DNA from: Alphaproteobacteria bacterium
Lineage (GTDB): Bacteria; Pseudomonadota; Alphaproteobacteria; UBA9219; RFNS01
Length of the DNA stretch: 64,000 bases
Assembly: GCA_037200005.1 (NCBI GenBank)
Contig: JBBCGY010000001.1
Location: 1,325,812 to 1,389,811 of the forward strand
Direction of reading: 5' to 3'
The notes below the pieces were generated by a model. It searched no databases, was not told the DNA's origin, and was given only the letters and a program-made list of their open reading frames with translations. The translations under genes were made by a program, and so were the position numbers. How positions within the stretch are numbered: the first letter of the stretch is position 1; every line of letters begins with the position of its first letter. Shown here piece by piece: positions 27,488-44,085 of the stretch.

Positions 27488-28426
27488 TTATTGACGGTTC
27501 TTTAACAAACCCTGCACGGATTCCACGACGGTTGCAACCGGCAGGCTATCCATGAGATTGGGGGCCGCGGCGCCGGGATGAGGCAGGCGGGCGAGCAATT
27601 CCGCCGTGCTTTCCGGGGTACGAAGCGCAATCCCTCCCCAGGGGCCATAAATCTTCTCATAGCCGGGACCGAACAAGCCGAGGGTCGGCACCCCCATCGC
27701 CGCGGCAAGATGCATAAGCCCGGAATCGTTGCCGATGAAGACCTTGGCCCGCTGGAGGCATGCGGCGGCGAGAGATAGCGACCCGCCGATGATCTCAATG
27801 CGCTGGCTCGCGGGAATTGCGTTCAGGACGGGCAAGATCGCGTCCCGTTCATGCGCGGCGGCCAGCACCATGACCCGATTGCCCGCCAGCGCCGGATCGC
27901 CCAGCAGCGTCGCGACCAGAGCGGCGAATTTCTCCGCCGGCCATTGCTTGGGATACCAGTTCGCCGCCGGGCCGAGCGCGATGATCGGCGCGCCGGAACC
28001 GACCAGATCAGCCGCCTGCCGGTCGACGGCGGCGCTGACCCATATTTTCGGGGCGGGCGGCGGAGCCAGCGCCATGACGGCAGCGTTTTCCAGCACCTTG
28101 TGCGTATTCTCGTCGCCGCCGCGGTGAAGATATAGCTTGCCGTGCCGCAACAGGCGGCTCACCAGGCTGTTGCGCAGATCGACGATAATATCCCAGTGGA
28201 ACGGCGCGCAGCGCCGCCACAAATGCCACCAGTGCCGGTTCCAGCTTTGCTTGGGCATCGGGATGATCTGCTCCAGCCCCGGCAGACCCTCGAACAAATC
28301 CACGCATAGCGGGCCGCAGGCCACGGTGAATTCCGCGCTTGGATACGTATCGGCCAGATGCCTCAGCAATCCCGTGGACAGGATCGCGTCGCCGATGCGG
28401 TTGGCTGAGATGAAAAGGATTTTCAT
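27488..28426 (-). CDS. Glycosyltransferase family 9 (heptosyltransferase-like)
   Basis: 312 residues from ATG 28426 (MKILFISANRIGDAILSTGL). GT9 features: the N-terminal glycine-rich strand-loop, GPAANWYPKQWPAEKFAAL, and the ADP-sugar binding FIGNDSGLMHLAAAMGVPTLGLFGP. Family members add heptoses or related sugars to lipopolysaccharide core at the inner face of the cytoplasmic membrane. The start overlaps the yciI-like stop (ATGA). Confidence 0.9.
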   Translation of the reverse strand: MKILFISANRIGDAILSTGLLRHLADTYPSAEFTVACGPLCVDLFEGLPGLEQIIPMPKQSWNRHWWHLWRRCAPFHWDIIVDLRNSLVSRLLRHGKLYLHRGGDENTHKVLENAAVMALAPPPAPKIWVSAAVDRQAADLVGSGAPIIALGPAANWYPKQWPAEKFAALVATLLGDPALAGNRVMVLAAAHERDAILPVLNAIPASQRIEIIGGSLSLAAACLQRAKVFIGNDSGLMHLAAAMGVPTLGLFGPGYEKIYGPWGGIALRTPESTAELLARLPHPGAAAPNLMDSLPVATVVESVQGLLKNRQ

Positions 28427-28752
28427 GAGAGTGATGACGCCGTGATCTTTTCGAGAATGTTCTGGAATGACGGCCCTACGCGGCATTCCACGACTTCCGT
28501 TTCCTTCCAGACCTGTCCCGTGACATAAGGCTCCTCGCGCAGCCACCCGTCAAGCGCCTCGCGGCTGGCGAAATCGCATAACAGAACCGAGCCGCACATC
28601 TTACCTTCGCCGTCGAGCAACGCCACGCCCATGAGAAGATTCCCCGACGCGACGAGCTTGTCGCCAAGCGCGATATGCGCCGCCCGCGCCGCCATTCTGC
28701 GCGCTAGCGCATCGGCGTCTTTTCCGTCGCGACCGATAACGATAAATTGCAT
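28423..28752 (-). CDS. YciI-family protein
   Basis: 109 residues, MQFIVIGRDGKDADALARR with the ferredoxin-like YciI fold; His26 (RAAHI) and Asp60 (LLCDFASREALDGWL) fit the conserved His/Asp pair. The biochemical role of the family is poorly known. It is divergent from the ABC ATPase gene, with 69 bp between starts, and heads the long minus-strand operon. Confidence 0.88.
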   Translation of the reverse strand: MQFIVIGRDGKDADALARRMAARAAHIALGDKLVASGNLLMGVALLDGEGKMCGSVLLCDFASREALDGWLREEPYVTGQVWKETEVVECRVGPSFQNILEKITASSLS

Positions 28753-28821
28753 TTTCCGTCCTGCATAGGCAAAGTGATTGGCGTTCTCTGTAACCCATCT
28801 TCTGTCGTCTGTCACCCGGTC

Positions 28822-29559
28822 ATGCAACCCGCTATTATCGTTAAAGGCCTGCGCAAGGAATATGGCAATGTCGTCGCGGTGGCGGGGCTGGATTTCACGG
28901 TCAAATGCGGCAGTATTACCGCGTTGCTCGGCGGCAACGGAGCGGGAAAAACCACGACCATAGGCATGCTGCTGGGCATATTGCTGCCGACGGCGGGAAA
29001 AATCACCGTCCTGGGCGCGGATATGCTGCGCAACCGTTATGCCGTCCTGCCGGACATGAATTTTTCGTCGCCCTATGTCGATCTGCCGGGACGGCTGACC
29101 TTGCGCCAAAACCTGACCGTTTACGCCCATCTTTACGGCGTGCCGGAGCCGGGCCGGCGGATCGGGGAGCTGGCGGCGGATTTGCAGATCGTCTCATTGC
29201 TGGAAAGGCCCTACGGCCAGCTTTCCGCCGGGCAGAAGACCCGCGCCGCGCTCGCCAAGGCGCTCATCAACCGGCCCAGACTTCTATTGCTCGACGAACC
29301 GACAGCCTCGCTCGATCCCGATACCGCCGACTGGGTGCGCGGCTATCTTCACGATTACCGGCAGAAGACCGGCGCGACCATCCTGCTCGCTTCGCATCAT
29401 ATGGGCGAAGTCGAGCGCCTGTGCGATCATGCCATCATGATGCGCACCGGGGAGATCGCGGCGGAGGGCAGCCCCGCCGAGCTTATTGTCTCCTACGGCA
29501 GAACCAACCTGGAAGAGGTGTTCCTTGACATCGCCCGAAACCGCCGCAATCCGGCCTGA
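28822..29559 (+). CDS. ABC-2 exporter ATP-binding protein
   Basis: 245 residues from ATG 28822. Walker A GGNGAGKTTT (37-46), signature LSAGQKTRAALAKAL, Walker B LLLLDEPTASLDPDTA and the H-loop LASHHMGEVE are all present. Sequence style is that of NodI/CcmA-like ABC-2 exporters. Longer upstream starts exist but have no ribosome-binding site. It overlaps the permease gene by 35 bp if the latter starts at TTG 29525. Confidence 0.92.
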   Translation: MQPAIIVKGLRKEYGNVVAVAGLDFTVKCGSITALLGGNGAGKTTTIGMLLGILLPTAGKITVLGADMLRNRYAVLPDMNFSSPYVDLPGRLTLRQNLTVYAHLYGVPEPGRRIGELAADLQIVSLLERPYGQLSAGQKTRAALAKALINRPRLLLLDEPTASLDPDTADWVRGYLHDYRQKTGATILLASHHMGEVERLCDHAIMMRTGEIAAEGSPAELIVSYGRTNLEEVFLDIARNRRNPA

Positions 29560-30367
29560 AACCACGCGCCACGGCGGCGCGTCGCGCCGCATCCTCGGCA
29601 TGGTGCTGCGGCACTATTACCTGCTGCGGGGATCGATCCCCCGGCTGGTGGAATGGTTCTATTGGCCGATGCTCAATATCCTCATGTGGGGCTATTTGAA
29701 CAAATTCCTGTATCTATCCCGCGCCACGCCGCTGCTGACGTTCGGCATCCTGCTCGGCGGCGCCATGCTGTGGGAAATCGTCATCCGCGGCCAGATGGGC
29801 GCGATGAAAGTCACCTTCGAGGAAATGTGGTCGCGGAACCTGACGCAATTATTCGTCAGCCCCCTGTCGCCGTCGGAATTCCTGGTCAGCCTTGTCGTCA
29901 TCAGCTTCCTGAGCACGACGGTCGCCTTGATTCCCTGCACGATCGCGGCAAGCTGGGTTTTCGGATTCTCGATCTTCGATCTCGGCTGGCAGCTCGGCGC
30001 GTTTTACTTCATGCAGCTCATGACCGGATGGTGGATGGCCGCGTTGATGGCGGCGCTGCTGGTGCGCTACGGCCTCGGCATGGAATGGATCGTCTGGATG
30101 TCGATATGGATTCTGGCGCCGATTACCGGCTGCTATTATCCGGTCACGGTTCTGCCGGAATGGCTGCAACATATTTCCTGGCTGCTGCCGCCTACTTATA
30201 TTTTCGAGGGCATGAGGCAGATTCTGAACCACCAGACTTTCGACGCCATGCTGCTGCTCAAAAGCCTGGGGCTTAATATTCTATATCTGGCCGGATCGTG
30301 CGGGATATTCCTATACGCTTTCGACGCCGCGCGGCGGCACGGCAGCTTGCTGCAGGCGGGGGAGTAA
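29525..30367 (+). CDS. ABC-2 exporter permease
   Basis: About 280 residues with six hydrophobic segments and ABC-2 motifs (GGAMLWEIVIRGQMGAM, WILAPITGCYYPVTVLPE, YIFEGMRQIL). The likely start is TTG 29525, preceded by GAGGTG; an ATG at 29600 (MVLRHYYLL) is the alternative. Partner of the ATPase just upstream; the exported substrate is unknown. Confidence 0.88.
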   Translation: MTSPETAAIRPETTRHGGASRRILGMVLRHYYLLRGSIPRLVEWFYWPMLNILMWGYLNKFLYLSRATPLLTFGILLGGAMLWEIVIRGQMGAMKVTFEEMWSRNLTQLFVSPLSPSEFLVSLVVISFLSTTVALIPCTIAASWVFGFSIFDLGWQLGAFYFMQLMTGWWMAALMAALLVRYGLGMEWIVWMSIWILAPITGCYYPVTVLPEWLQHISWLLPPTYIFEGMRQILNHQTFDAMLLLKSLGLNILYLAGSCGIFLYAFDAARRHGSLLQAGE

Positions 30368-30376
30368 GCGATGTCC

Positions 30377-30393
30377 CCTTCCCTGAGGGAAGG
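30377..30393. terminator. Hairpin between the converging ABC permease and rpoC genes
   Basis: CCTTCCC-TGA-GGGAAGG is a perfect 7-bp stem in the 59-bp gap between two converging stops. There is no T-run after it on either strand, so intrinsic termination would be weak. Confidence 0.4.
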
Positions 30394-30426
30394 TTACACC
30401 GCTTTGCTCATCCATCTTATGCTTAA

Positions 30427-34620
<4,194 letters not shown>

Positions 34621-34636
34621 TTATCTCAAACCGGCA

Positions 34637-35656
34637 TCAGCCGACTGAAGCAACATTGGATTGAATAGCACGAATGGGCGGCGCGCGATCCACCCGAACC
34701 GGCGCGACAACAGACTGTTGCATGTTAGCATTGGCGGCCTCACGGCGCGCCGCCACGGCTTCCTGCATGGTTTCCGACGCCCCAAACAACATCTGTATGC
34801 CGGGCACATGCTGCAGCGACATGACTGCCCAAGCAGGCAATTTTACCAACGCCACGTCTTGCGGCTTGTTACCTTCAGAGAAGGTCGTCGCATAACCACT
34901 AACGACGCCTCTGCTCTTCCCGACAAAATCACGCAATTCGTCTGCGGACTGTTTCGAAGAAACTGGCGGATTGATAGCCATGCGAACCAGTACGGTCTTT
35001 GCTGCCGATTGGGCTACGCGTTGTACGGCTTCCGATATGAAGACCTCTTGATTTGGCACAGACGGCGCAGAAGCCGCCATCGACGCCACCGGCGAAGACC
35101 TTTTGACTTCGGATATCTCTTCGGTGACCTCGAAGTCGAAGGCCGGATCTTCTTTTACAGCCGTCTGGACGGGCGCAACGGCAACAACCGATGCGGCCTT
35201 AGGCCGGTCGACTTGGAATGTGATGCCATGCGCGGCGTCTGCCACCATGTCCTGCCAGCCGGAGACGGAACGGTCGATTTCCGACATATCGGCCTTGCCC
35301 TTATTGTTCATCGTCAGAACAGGAAATTCGGCAGGCGCTGACAATTCCTTCACCCGGCCCCACTGCGCAAACCCTTCCATTTTGTCCAAGGGTATTTTCA
35401 TATGGAGCAGTTCGCGGGCTTCGCCGTTGGGATCCTGCACACTTCCATAATTGACGAGGGTGGCGCCTGTATCCTGCGCGTACTGCTGCACCTGCCACAA
35501 GGTCATCTCCGGCGTTACGCCTTCCTTGGGCCGCAACTCGACAACGACGGGCGCCGCCCAATTGGGCATGACGCCATCGTTCGCAATCGTCAGATTGAGG
35601 ACGAACTCCGCCATCCTGGCGGAATAAGGCACTTCTCGCTTTTCTTGCGTAGCCAT
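34637..35656 (-). CDS. Unrecognised 339-residue protein encoded between rpoB and rpoC
   Basis: I recognise no family. ATG 35656 (MATQEKREV) is chosen because GGGAGGGG sits 8 bases upstream; an ATG two codons earlier is too close to it. No signal peptide, membrane segment or cysteine. Layout: an alpha/beta-looking region (about 19-105), a Pro/Ala/Ser-rich linker (about 150-205), a second alpha/beta-looking region (about 220-290) and an Ala/Gln/Arg-rich tail. Residues 53-105 and 238-290 align without gaps over 53 positions with shared Tyr, Lys-x-Pro and hydrophobic pattern, suggesting an internal duplication. It is 21 bp after the rpoB stop and 43 bp before the rpoC start, same strand, and base use matches its neighbours, so it must be expressed with RNA polymerase. 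A role with RNA polymerase is inference from position only. Confidence 0.85.
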   Translation of the reverse strand: MATQEKREVPYSARMAEFVLNLTIANDGVMPNWAAPVVVELRPKEGVTPEMTLWQVQQYAQDTGATLVNYGSVQDPNGEARELLHMKIPLDKMEGFAQWGRVKELSAPAEFPVLTMNNKGKADMSEIDRSVSGWQDMVADAAHGITFQVDRPKAASVVAVAPVQTAVKEDPAFDFEVTEEISEVKRSSPVASMAASAPSVPNQEVFISEAVQRVAQSAAKTVLVRMAINPPVSSKQSADELRDFVGKSRGVVSGYATTFSEGNKPQDVALVKLPAWAVMSLQHVPGIQMLFGASETMQEAVAARREAANANMQQSVVAPVRVDRAPPIRAIQSNVASVG

Positions 35657-35677
35657 GATCATCCCCTCCCTGTTCCG

Positions 35678-39946
<4,269 letters not shown>

Positions 39947-40227
39947 GAGCGTCCCTACGTCCGGCATCGCCACAAAGGCAATGCGCAAGTCATCGATATT
40001 CGCTTTCCGAGCAACCAAGCAAAAATTTTTGCTGAAAAATCGAAAGCAAAAAGCCGCGCAGGCGCGTGACCGTTCCCGATCCAGCACCGCTGCGTGGTTG
40101 ATTTTATGCTTCAGCTGCTCATAAGTCGGTGCAATATCGCGAATCTTAGGGGTCTGCGCAAGGAGAATCTTGATCCCTATAAAGATTCTATGTTCCAAGG
40201 CGTTCATTTAAGATTTTTGGAGGCGAC

Positions 40228-40245
40228 CGCATATATACTTATGCG
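40228..40245. promoter_or_regulatory. Inverted repeat in the rpoB leader
   Basis: CGCATA-TATACT-TATGCG, six perfect pairs around a TA-rich centre, overlapping a possible -10 (TATATA) for rpoB on the minus strand. Could be an operator. Confidence 0.3.
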
Positions 40246-40263
40246 TGTGAGCTTCCTAAAAAG

Positions 40264-40277
40264 CGCGGAATTCCGCG
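40264..40277 (-). terminator. Palindromic hairpin with T-run upstream of rpoB
   Basis: CGCGGAATTCCGCG, followed on the minus strand by CTTTTTA, has the form of an intrinsic terminator (5-bp GC stem, AATT loop). It lies about 320 bp before the rpoB start, so on that strand it could only act as an attenuator or stop antisense transcription from the right. Confidence 0.35.
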
Positions 40278-40473
40278 AAAATTCAACCAAGGCTTGCCAT
40301 AACTTGATTTGTCTCCCAGGCAAAATTCATGTATAAACGGCCTTTCCATGAGGTAGTTTGAATGGATCGGCAGAAAAGCCATCTTCAGCCTTCAGATTCT
40401 TTCGCAACCGCGCGCTGTACCCGGCCAAGAGCGCCGGATTTTGGCTCCGCCTTATCAAAGTCCGGCGGCGGCA

Positions 40474-41247
40474 ATGAGCAGTAAATCGAACCCTCCGCGA
40501 CTGCTTGCGTTATCTTCCGATCCTGAAATTATCATTCACGAAACCGACATTCTCTCCCTGCCACTAAGATATCAGAGAATTATAAGTGATTTCAAAGAGA
40601 TAGCTGTAGCCATTGCCAAGCAAGCCAAACAAAAAACTCCTATCTATGAATTTTACGATTTGCCCGACGACCATACGCGCATGAGGGAAATGCTGGAAAA
40701 AAGCGTCCTTGGCCAGCAATTGCTGGCCCATGGCGGCGAACGCGCGATACCCGTACTCATGGCTTACGCCAAGAACAAGACCAGCATTCTCGGCTGCTAC
40801 GATACCGTGGAAGACGGCATCGTCGTCGTCAACAGCGGCGATGTCGAGAATGCCATAACCGAAGGGCATGAGCTGGCGCACTCTCAAATTCCTGAAAATA
40901 CAGGGGCCGCGCAACGATTATAAGGACAAGGGAACGCTGGCGGGGCCTGCTTACGGCATCCTCAATGAAGCCACGGCGCTGGCTAGCGATCATATCGTTA
41001 AGCGGCAGATCGAAAACGCCCTCATCAGCCCAAAGAAAGTGCCGCTGTCTCGCGAAGAAATTTACGCGAAGCGCGGCAAATTTTTGTCAATGTCACCACC
41101 GATGAAGCGGAAGCCCGGTCATGCGTGGGGGACTATCTGGTTGACAACAAGCTGGCCTATCCTCAACCGAATGCCTTGGTCTATGTCGAAAGGGAGTTCG
41201 GCGCAAACTTTGTCGACCGCGCGATAGCGATATGGAGCAACGGTTAG
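40474..41247 (+). pseudogene. Putative zinc metallopeptidase with HELAH motif (two frameshifts)
   Basis: Starts MSSKSNPPRLLALSS (ATG 40474; an upstream in-frame TTG at 40441 is possible). A HExxH zinc motif is visible as EGHELAH, followed about 33 residues later by GILNEATALASDH, where the Glu can serve as third zinc ligand as in gluzincins. The frame breaks just after HELAH (near 40887, one extra base) and in a T-run near 41083 (one missing base). Corrected, it runs to TAG 41245-41247, about 257 residues. No signal peptide, so probably cytoplasmic. No specific family recognised; peptidase activity is inferred from the motif. Confidence 0.65.
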
Positions 41248-41256
41248 AAATTATAG

Positions 41257-41720
41257 TCAGTCCGCCTTGATCGCGAAAACCGCCTCGACTTCCACTGCTG
41301 CGTCGAGCGGCAGCGAGGGCGCGCCGACGGCGGCGCGGGCATGGCGGCCCGCTTCGCCGAACACCGCGAGCATCAGTTCGGATGCGCCGTTGACGACTTT
41401 CGGATGATCGGTGAAATCCGGCGTGCAGGCGACGAAGCCGCGAGCCTCACGACCCGCGCGACTTTCTCAAGACTGCCGAGCGCCGCCTGAGCCTGCGCCA
41501 AAAGATTGATCGCGCAAAGCTTCGCCGCTTCCTGTCCTGTGGCGATATCGACTCCCGCGCCCAGCTTGCCGGTGAATTTCACCTTGCCGTCCGCCGACGG
41601 AATCTGGCCGGAGACGAACAGCAGATCGCCCGCGCGCACGAAAGGCACATAGGCCGCGACCGGAACGGGCGGCGTGGGCAATGTGATGCCGAGTTCGGCA
41701 AGGCGGTTGGCGATGGTCAC
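41257..41720 (-). pseudogene. RidA/YjgF-family protein (one frameshift)
   Basis: GTG start at 41720 with AAGGA upstream. Reads [62 protein letters not shown]; after one missing G near 41450 it continues [20 protein letters not shown] to the stop at 41257. This is the longer RidA-like subgroup. RidA proper hydrolyses reactive enamine/imine intermediates of PLP enzymes; subgroup members may differ. Converges on the metallopeptidase gene with 9 bp between stops. Confidence 0.82.
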
Positions 41721-41763
41721 GGTGGCTATCCTTAGGGGACACAATACGAAACGATAACTGCTT

Positions 41764-44085
41764 CTACTTCTCCACGAGCGCTTTTTTCTTGCCGATTTTT
41801 TCTTCCCGCTCTCCGCCTTGATCTCCGGCGCGTCGGGATAGGAGAAGCTTAGCTTATCCGCTTTCTCGTCGAGGCCGATCAGCACCGCGCCGCCCTTGGC
41901 CAGCTTGCCGAACAGCAACTCGTCGGCCAGCGGCTTTTTGACTTCCTCCTGAATGACCCGCGCGAGCGGGCGCGCGCCATAGAGCGGATCGTAGCCCTTC
42001 TTGCCGAGCCAGCGCCGCGCCGCGTCGGTCAGTTCGATGGTCACGCCGCGTTCCGCCAGCTGGCCTTCGAGCTGAAGGATGAATTTATCCACCACCCGGT
42101 CGATGACATCCATGCCGAGCGCGTTGAATCCGATAACGGCGTCGAGCCGGTTGCGGAATTCGGGCGTGAACATGCGATTGATCGCTTCTTTGTCCTCGCC
42201 CTCGCGATGTTCGCGGAAAAAGCCGATGGCGGGCTTGGCAAGATCGGCGGCGCCCGCATTCGTGGTCATGACCAGGATGGCATTGCGGAAATTGACCGAT
42301 TTGCCGTTATGGTCGGTGAGCTTGCCGTGATCCATGACTTGCAGCAGCACATTGAACAAATCGGGATGCGCCTTCTCGATTTCGTCGAGCAGCAGAACGC
42401 AATAGGGATGCTGATCCACCGCGTCGGTGAGCAGCCCGCCCTGATTCGAAACCGACATAGCCCGGCGGCGCGCCGATCAAGCGGCTGACCGCGTGGCGCT
42501 CCATATATTCCGACATGTCGAAACGGTGCAGTTCGATACCGAGCGATTTCGCCAGTTGCCGCGCCACTTCGGTCTTGCCGACGCCCGTCGGCCCCGAGAA
42601 CAGATAGCAGCCGATGGCTTCTCGGCTTCGCGCAGCCCCGCCCGCGCCAGCTTGATGGCGGCGACCACCGCCCCGATGGCCTGATCCTGCCGAAGACCGC
42701 GTTCTTCAAATCTTGTTCCAAATTCTTCAACACCGCCCGGTCATCATGATTGACGGTTTTGGCCGGAATGCGGGGCGATCTTGGCCACGACCGCTTCGAT
42801 ATCCTTGATGCCGAGCGTGCGCTTGCGCTTGCCGGGCGGCAGCAAAGCCTGCGCCGCGCCGCTTTCGTCGATCACGTCGATAGCCTTGTCGGGCAGCTTG
42901 CGGTCATGGATGTAGCGCGAGAAAGCTCCACCGCGCCCTTGATGGCGTCGGCGGTGTAATGAACCTTGTGATGGTCTTCGTAATACGACTTCAAGCCGTT
43001 CAGAATCTTGATCGCGTCCGCACTGTCGGCTCGTTGATGTCGATTTTCTGGAACCGGCGCACCAGCGCGCGATCTTTTTCAAAGTGGGTGCGGTATTCTT
43101 TATAAGTGGTCGAGCCGATGCAGCGCAGCGACCCGGACGCCAGCGCGGGCTTGAGAAGATTGGATGCGTCCATCGCCCCGCCCGACGTCGCTCCCGCGCC
43201 GATGACGGTATGGATTTCGTCGATGAACAAAACGGCGCCCGGCATCGACTGCAATTCCGACAGCACGTTCTTCAGCCGTTCCTCGAAATCGCCCCTGTAT
43301 CGCGTGCCTGCCAGCAACTGCCCCATATCGAGGCTGTAGATCACGGCGTTCGCCAGAACCTCCGGCACTTCGCCGCGAATGATGCGCCGCGCCAGCCCCT
43401 CGGCGATGGCCGTCTTGCCGACGCCCGGATCGCCAACCAGCAGCGGATTGTTCTTCTGGCGGCGGCACAGGATTTGCGCCGTGCGCTCGACCTCGGCGGC
43501 GCGGCCGATCAGCGGGTCGATCTTGCCCTGCTTCGCCTTCTCGTTGAGATTCACGCAATAGGCGTCGAGCGCGTCCTTACCGCGCCGGACCACGCGCTCG
43601 GCTTCGGCGTCTTCGTCGGCGCCGCTGGCCGAAGCGGAGGCGAAGCCGCCGCCCGCCACCTTGGTGATGCCGTGCGAGATGTAGTTCACCGCGTCGAAGC
43701 GCGTCATGCCGTGATTTTGCAGGAAATAGACGGCGTGGCTTTCGCGCTCGGAGAACAGCGATACCAGCACGTTCGCGCCCGTCACCTCCTCGCGTCCCGA
43801 CGACTGCACATGGATCGCCGCGCGCTGCAGCACGCGCTGGAAGGCGGTCGTCGGCTTTGGATCGGCCGTGTCGGGCGCGAGGGTGCCGAGGCCGTCATCC
43901 AGATGCTCGATAAGCTCGGCGCGCAGTTTTTCGATATTAAGGCCGCAGGCGCGCATGACCGCGACGGCGTCCTGATCCTCGGTCAAGGCCAGCAGCAGAT
44001 GCTCGAGCGTCGCGAATTCGTGACGCCGCTCATGCGCGAATTGCAGCGCCCGATGCAAGGTTTGTTCGAGATTGCGCGCCAGCAT
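41764..44085 (-). pseudogene. clpA: ATP-dependent Clp protease ATP-binding subunit ClpA (several frameshifts)
   Basis: Starts [20 protein letters not shown] (Clp N-domain). The first AAA+ module is intact: [36 protein letters not shown]. Then come frame changes near 43018, 42925, 42765, 42690, 42620, 42453 and 41795; the second AAA+ module is readable in pieces ([38 protein letters not shown]) to the corrected C-terminus KKALVEK and TAG at 41764. ClpA unfolds substrates for ClpP. The start is 3 bp after clpS. An essential-type reading frame broken seven times without other damage points to sequence error. Confidence 0.9.

Follow-up and report, generated by a model that had tools for sequence, protein, structure and literature searches.

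A lineage-restricted orphan gene between rpoB and rpoC in an alphaproteobacterium, probably a passenger in a permissive spacer

The genes rpoB and rpoC usually lie directly next to each other. In the window (the whole stretch of 64,000 nucleotides analysed here), they are separated by an additional gene, which raises the question of whether its product belongs to RNA polymerase or whether the gene only resides there. The initial annotation had described an intact 339-residue gene on the strand of rpoB and rpoC, and the ORF coordinates (Table 1) confirm this arrangement: all three genes are on the minus strand, with 21 bp between rpoB and the start of the orphan gene and 43 bp between its end and rpoC. 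The ribosome-binding site that had been claimed is present and good. A second in-frame ATG is found at 35662, 6 nt upstream of the one at 35656; since it overlaps the Shine-Dalgarno run, the start at 35656 is more likely. At the composition of the gene, an open frame as long as this one has a probability of about 4e-6 per frame, and codon usage prefers this frame to the other five. On these two grounds, the ORF qualifies as a real gene by sequence criteria. Neither a membrane segment (maximum Kyte-Doolittle mean over 19 residues of 1.05) nor a cysteine was found in the 339 residues of the protein, as had been annotated.

Table 1. Coordinates of the orphan gene, its neighbours and the predicted parts of its product in the window
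Feature	Position	Strand	Remarks
Orphan gene	34637..35656	-	339 aa, ATG to TGA, pI 5.2 (acidic), 36.6 kDa, cysteine-free
rpoC	30427..34593	-	ORF list and RpoC matches
rpoB	35678..39946	-	Start set within a longer mechanical ORF reaching 40207
Shine-Dalgarno-like sequence GGGAGGGG	35662..35672	-	5' of the orphan start
C-terminal domain, aa 213-316	34709..35020	-	Predicted ferredoxin-like fold (beta-alpha-beta-beta-alpha-beta) with an additional helix at the C-terminus
Probable N-terminal globular domain, about aa 31-112	35321..35566	-	Beta-alpha-beta-beta-alpha, low confidence, block pLDDT about 25-56
Probable disordered linker, about aa 113-211	35024..35320	-	pLDDT mostly 23-34

The absence of a recognised family, also claimed initially, was borne out by profile HMM and sequence searches, the protein having no match in Pfam, NCBIfam, PHROGs, PADLOC or the PDB sequences. 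Two weak hits, a profile match to arginine N-succinyltransferase (E 0.088) and a PDB match to IS629 OrfA (E 0.84), were dismissed as chance. Homologues were absent from GTDB contigs, viral contigs, phages and plasmids, in scans based on exact short peptides that detect close relatives only. Furthermore, none was detected in a 59-genome sample including genomes of the order, in a class sample of 385 genomes or in a phylum sample of 398 genomes (these samples overlap in part), apart from the source genome. The gene has hence been seen in one genome only. With a coding signal in frame and homologues detectable at most within a narrow lineage, it can be classified, as far as these searches reach, as a lineage-restricted orphan gene (ORFan).

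The initial annotation also held that its composition matches that of the flanks. This is not the case for rpoB and rpoC, which have a GC content of 60.4% and a GC3 of 0.80, versus 57.2% and 0.64 for the orphan, whose codon usage is not optimised as it is in these highly biased genes. However, its GC3 is ordinary among 64 surrounding long ORFs picked mechanically (first quartile 0.644, median 0.711). Since its GC3 is below that of rpoB and rpoC yet ordinary among nearby ORFs, the orphan cannot be called clearly foreign, nor does it show the adaptation of its neighbours. A scan of 34400-35900 gave no promoter-like site and no terminator that is convincing (two terminator-like patterns occur versus 1.5 expected), and for this reason rpoB, the orphan and rpoC are likely to be co-transcribed. 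The earlier statement that the gene is obligatorily co-transcribed is an inference. Rfam gave no match in 28000-42000.

The rpoB-rpoC spacing in related genomes, a check proposed in the initial annotation, bears most directly on the question. The nearest relative with sequence at the site (G003; RpoC N-terminus 93% identical) and another member of the same family (G002) have spacers of 53 and 48 bp, respectively. A third member of this family (G001) carries a different orphan of 190 aa. Gaps larger than 300 bp are found in 7 of the 23 genomes of the order, source genome included, versus 1 of 77 other Alphaproteobacteria (Fisher p = 1e-4, which is indicative, the genomes not being independent). 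All seven gaps hold a gene co-directional with rpoBC: two GIY-YIG genes, one 23S_rRNA_IVP gene and four different orphans, including that of the source genome. The GIY-YIG genes, in G011 and G032, have Pfam E-values of 2e-13 to 3e-13 and are 62% identical to each other; the four-helix-bundle 23S_rRNA_IVP gene of G006 (L026 / L131) has an E-value of 3e-33; the orphans of G014 and G017 encode 148 and 108 aa. No homologue of the orphan under study was detected, at the site or elsewhere, in G001, G002 and G003, nor in the other members of the order that were searched. Since unrelated genes occupy the spacer in some relatives and the site is empty in others, the junction can be viewed, from these comparisons, as permissive for gene insertion in this order of Alphaproteobacteria, and the orphan as a lineage-restricted passenger. 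An exact-phrase literature search for "between rpoB and rpoC" retrieved no paper on gene insertions at that junction.

Other features were seen in and around some of the spacers. In L018 and L019 (gaps of G032 and G011), the GIY-YIG nuclease gene is inserted between rpoB and rpoC and, at least in L018, occurs together with sequence that translates as WIPAYAGMT / RHSGVSRNPE, like REP-type palindromes. The gap of G021 (L011) is a 135-bp spacer whose sole content is a long REP-like inverted repeat (CGTCATCCCCGCGAATGCGGGGATCCA...). In G013 (L132:4504-8669), rpoC is seemingly split into two overlapping frames (594 and 815 aa), possibly by a frameshift.

The surroundings of rpoBC also vary, and the genes around them differ among relatives. 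In the source genome, rplL (C1:449046) is about 0.9 Mb from rpoB, and the S10-spc operon is intact. The idea that rpoBC are detached from rplJL throughout the order proved wrong: in G024 and G026, rplJ seems to have remained close to rpoB, and in G024 about 5.7 kb separate rplJ (C16:309) from rpoC (C16:5991), a distance that fits rplJL-rpoBC. In the rplA-rplJ interval of the source genome, of about 2.0 kb, another, small orphan gene is repeated in tandem, in at least four diverged copies and a doubtful fifth. In this array (L143:3337-5054, G000:C1; motif TIIIPEQMPK..VEQQWRVVERxMC), each copy has a ribosome-binding-like site and two copies have broken frames. No such array was found around rplJ in relatives; where rplA was found in these genomes, the distance from its stop to the L10 domain match is mostly 214-496 bp, the exceptions being G016 (846 bp) and G005 (1103 bp). 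A separate orphan of 203 aa was observed at L141:2242-2853, right after adk, the usual place of rpsM.

Structure prediction gives a fold type for part of the protein. The full-length model is poor (pLDDT 38), and the C-terminal domain modelled alone (AlphaFold2, single sequence) reaches a pLDDT of 69 and a pTM of 0.56. The structure-based search that had been proposed, run here with Foldseek and VIA-align 2, placed this domain among ferredoxin-like and similar alpha-beta domains, with matches to IlvN, the MgtC C-terminal domain, ribosomal S6, S10 and EF-G, and pointed to no specific family. The best PDB match has a Z of 9.1 (rmsd 2.1, 69 aligned residues), just slightly higher than the best Z of 7-8 typical of models without a clear match; Foldseek against the PDB gave no E-value below 0.001, and the ranked PDB matches have sequence identities of 4-18%. 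ACT domains are among the many near-tied Foldseek matches, with no Pfam match. BFVD matches (best E 9e-4, to an unnamed viral protein, 8% identity) were read as reflecting the same common fold. We therefore consider, with moderate confidence, a ferredoxin-like fold plausible for the C-terminal domain, and make no claim of homology. This fold is very common, too common to give the orphan a function. The N- and C-terminal domains, suspected by eye of having arisen by internal duplication, showed no significant sequence similarity (p 0.08-0.43).

Taken together, we favor, with a probability of roughly 0.7, the view that the gene, a lineage-restricted orphan, is a passenger in a permissive, expressed rpoB-rpoC spacer and that its product is not part of RNA polymerase. 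We infer passenger status from the absence of homologues in the order, class and phylum samples, contig collections, profile libraries and PDB, from the empty site in G003 and G002, and from the enrichment of large gaps in the order with other genes in them. The tandem orphans at rplA-rplJ, the intact S10-spc operon and a codon usage unlike that of rpoB and rpoC point in the same direction. The passenger is probably young or fast-evolving, and its spacer probably strongly expressed. It would have been inserted, in the same orientation, into a short spacer and would be expressed from the rpoBC operon. Its product would probably be soluble and cytosolic, a disordered linker of about 100 residues joining its N-terminal domain to a predicted ferredoxin-like C-terminal domain. 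Its biochemical function is a guess, the best one being a non-enzymatic binding or accessory protein produced at a roughly constant level. Against passenger status, no boundaries, repeats or mobility gene were found at the orphan. Among the options of the initial annotation, a lineage-specific protein using the strong promoter is thus supported, whereas a polymerase-associated or assembly factor gained nothing beyond its position.

Such a factor, lineage-specific, made in step with the subunits it binds or assembles and evolving too fast for sequence searches, is unlikely. Its position and spacing between rpoB and rpoC would suit it, and some ribosomal and translation proteins have the type of fold predicted for its C-terminal domain. 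However, a conserved polymerase subunit or factor should be kept in close relatives, and the nearest ones have no gene at the site while others carry unrelated known genes there; the codon usage of the orphan also differs from that of rpoB and rpoC. By eye, the gap orphans of G014 and G017 resemble single beta-alpha-beta-beta-alpha-beta domains and share its strand-helix pattern, as would be expected if a fast-evolving gene had been retained at this position, but sequence similarity is at chance level and homology was not retained. That the three orphans form one very fast-evolving, ferredoxin-like, RNA polymerase-binding family is highly improbable; if true, the order would have a previously undescribed polymerase accessory protein.

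There is likewise little chance that a small mobile or selfish element targeting the spacer brought the gene as cargo or left it as a relic. The similar GIY-YIG genes in the spacers of G011 and G032 and the REP-like palindromes that G021 and G032 have at this site are consistent with such an element, but the gap of the window contains no nuclease, transposase or repeat, and the orphan has no phage, viral or plasmid relative. It matches no mobile-element or phage family in Pfam, PHROGs, phages, plasmids or viral contigs, and its DNA has only chance-level matches elsewhere in the searched stretches of the genome. According to the initial annotation, a match to a known mobile or unrelated family without conservation of position would speak against its proposal: position is indeed not conserved among relatives, but no known mobile family was matched. 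Finally, a spurious frame or assembly artefact is extremely unlikely given the open-frame probability, ribosome-binding site, in-frame codon bias and predicted folding domain, although the assembly does not appear flawless, a clpA-like gene (identified by eye; 41373-44085) being broken over several frames, probably by assembly frameshifts or as a pseudogene.

One bacterial order repeatedly tolerates unrelated genes between rpoB and rpoC, and this junction is therefore not inviolable. These insertions constitute a natural series for testing the effect of insertion on the balance of polymerase subunits. Moreover, the orphan warns against inferring function from position alone.

Comparable insertions are known in this operon cluster. 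A survey of Gammaproteobacteria and Bacilli indicated that operon disconnection usually starts with the insertion of a few genes (PMC8046335). For instance, nrdHEF is inserted within the rpoBC operon of Lactobacillaceae (PMC8046335). Like the orphan, it is a lineage-restricted insertion of non-transcription genes within the rplJL-rpoBC cluster (PMC8046335), but it consists of known genes and lies between rplL and rsmC, whereas the orphan lies between rpoB and rpoC. The GIY-YIG and 23S_rRNA_IVP genes of relatives share its site, position and orientation but are unrelated to it in sequence. Lastly, ferredoxin-like domains such as ACT, ribosomal protein S6 and the C-terminal domain of EF-G have the topology predicted for its C-terminal domain, although identity is only 4-18% in the ranked PDB matches and no single family stands out.
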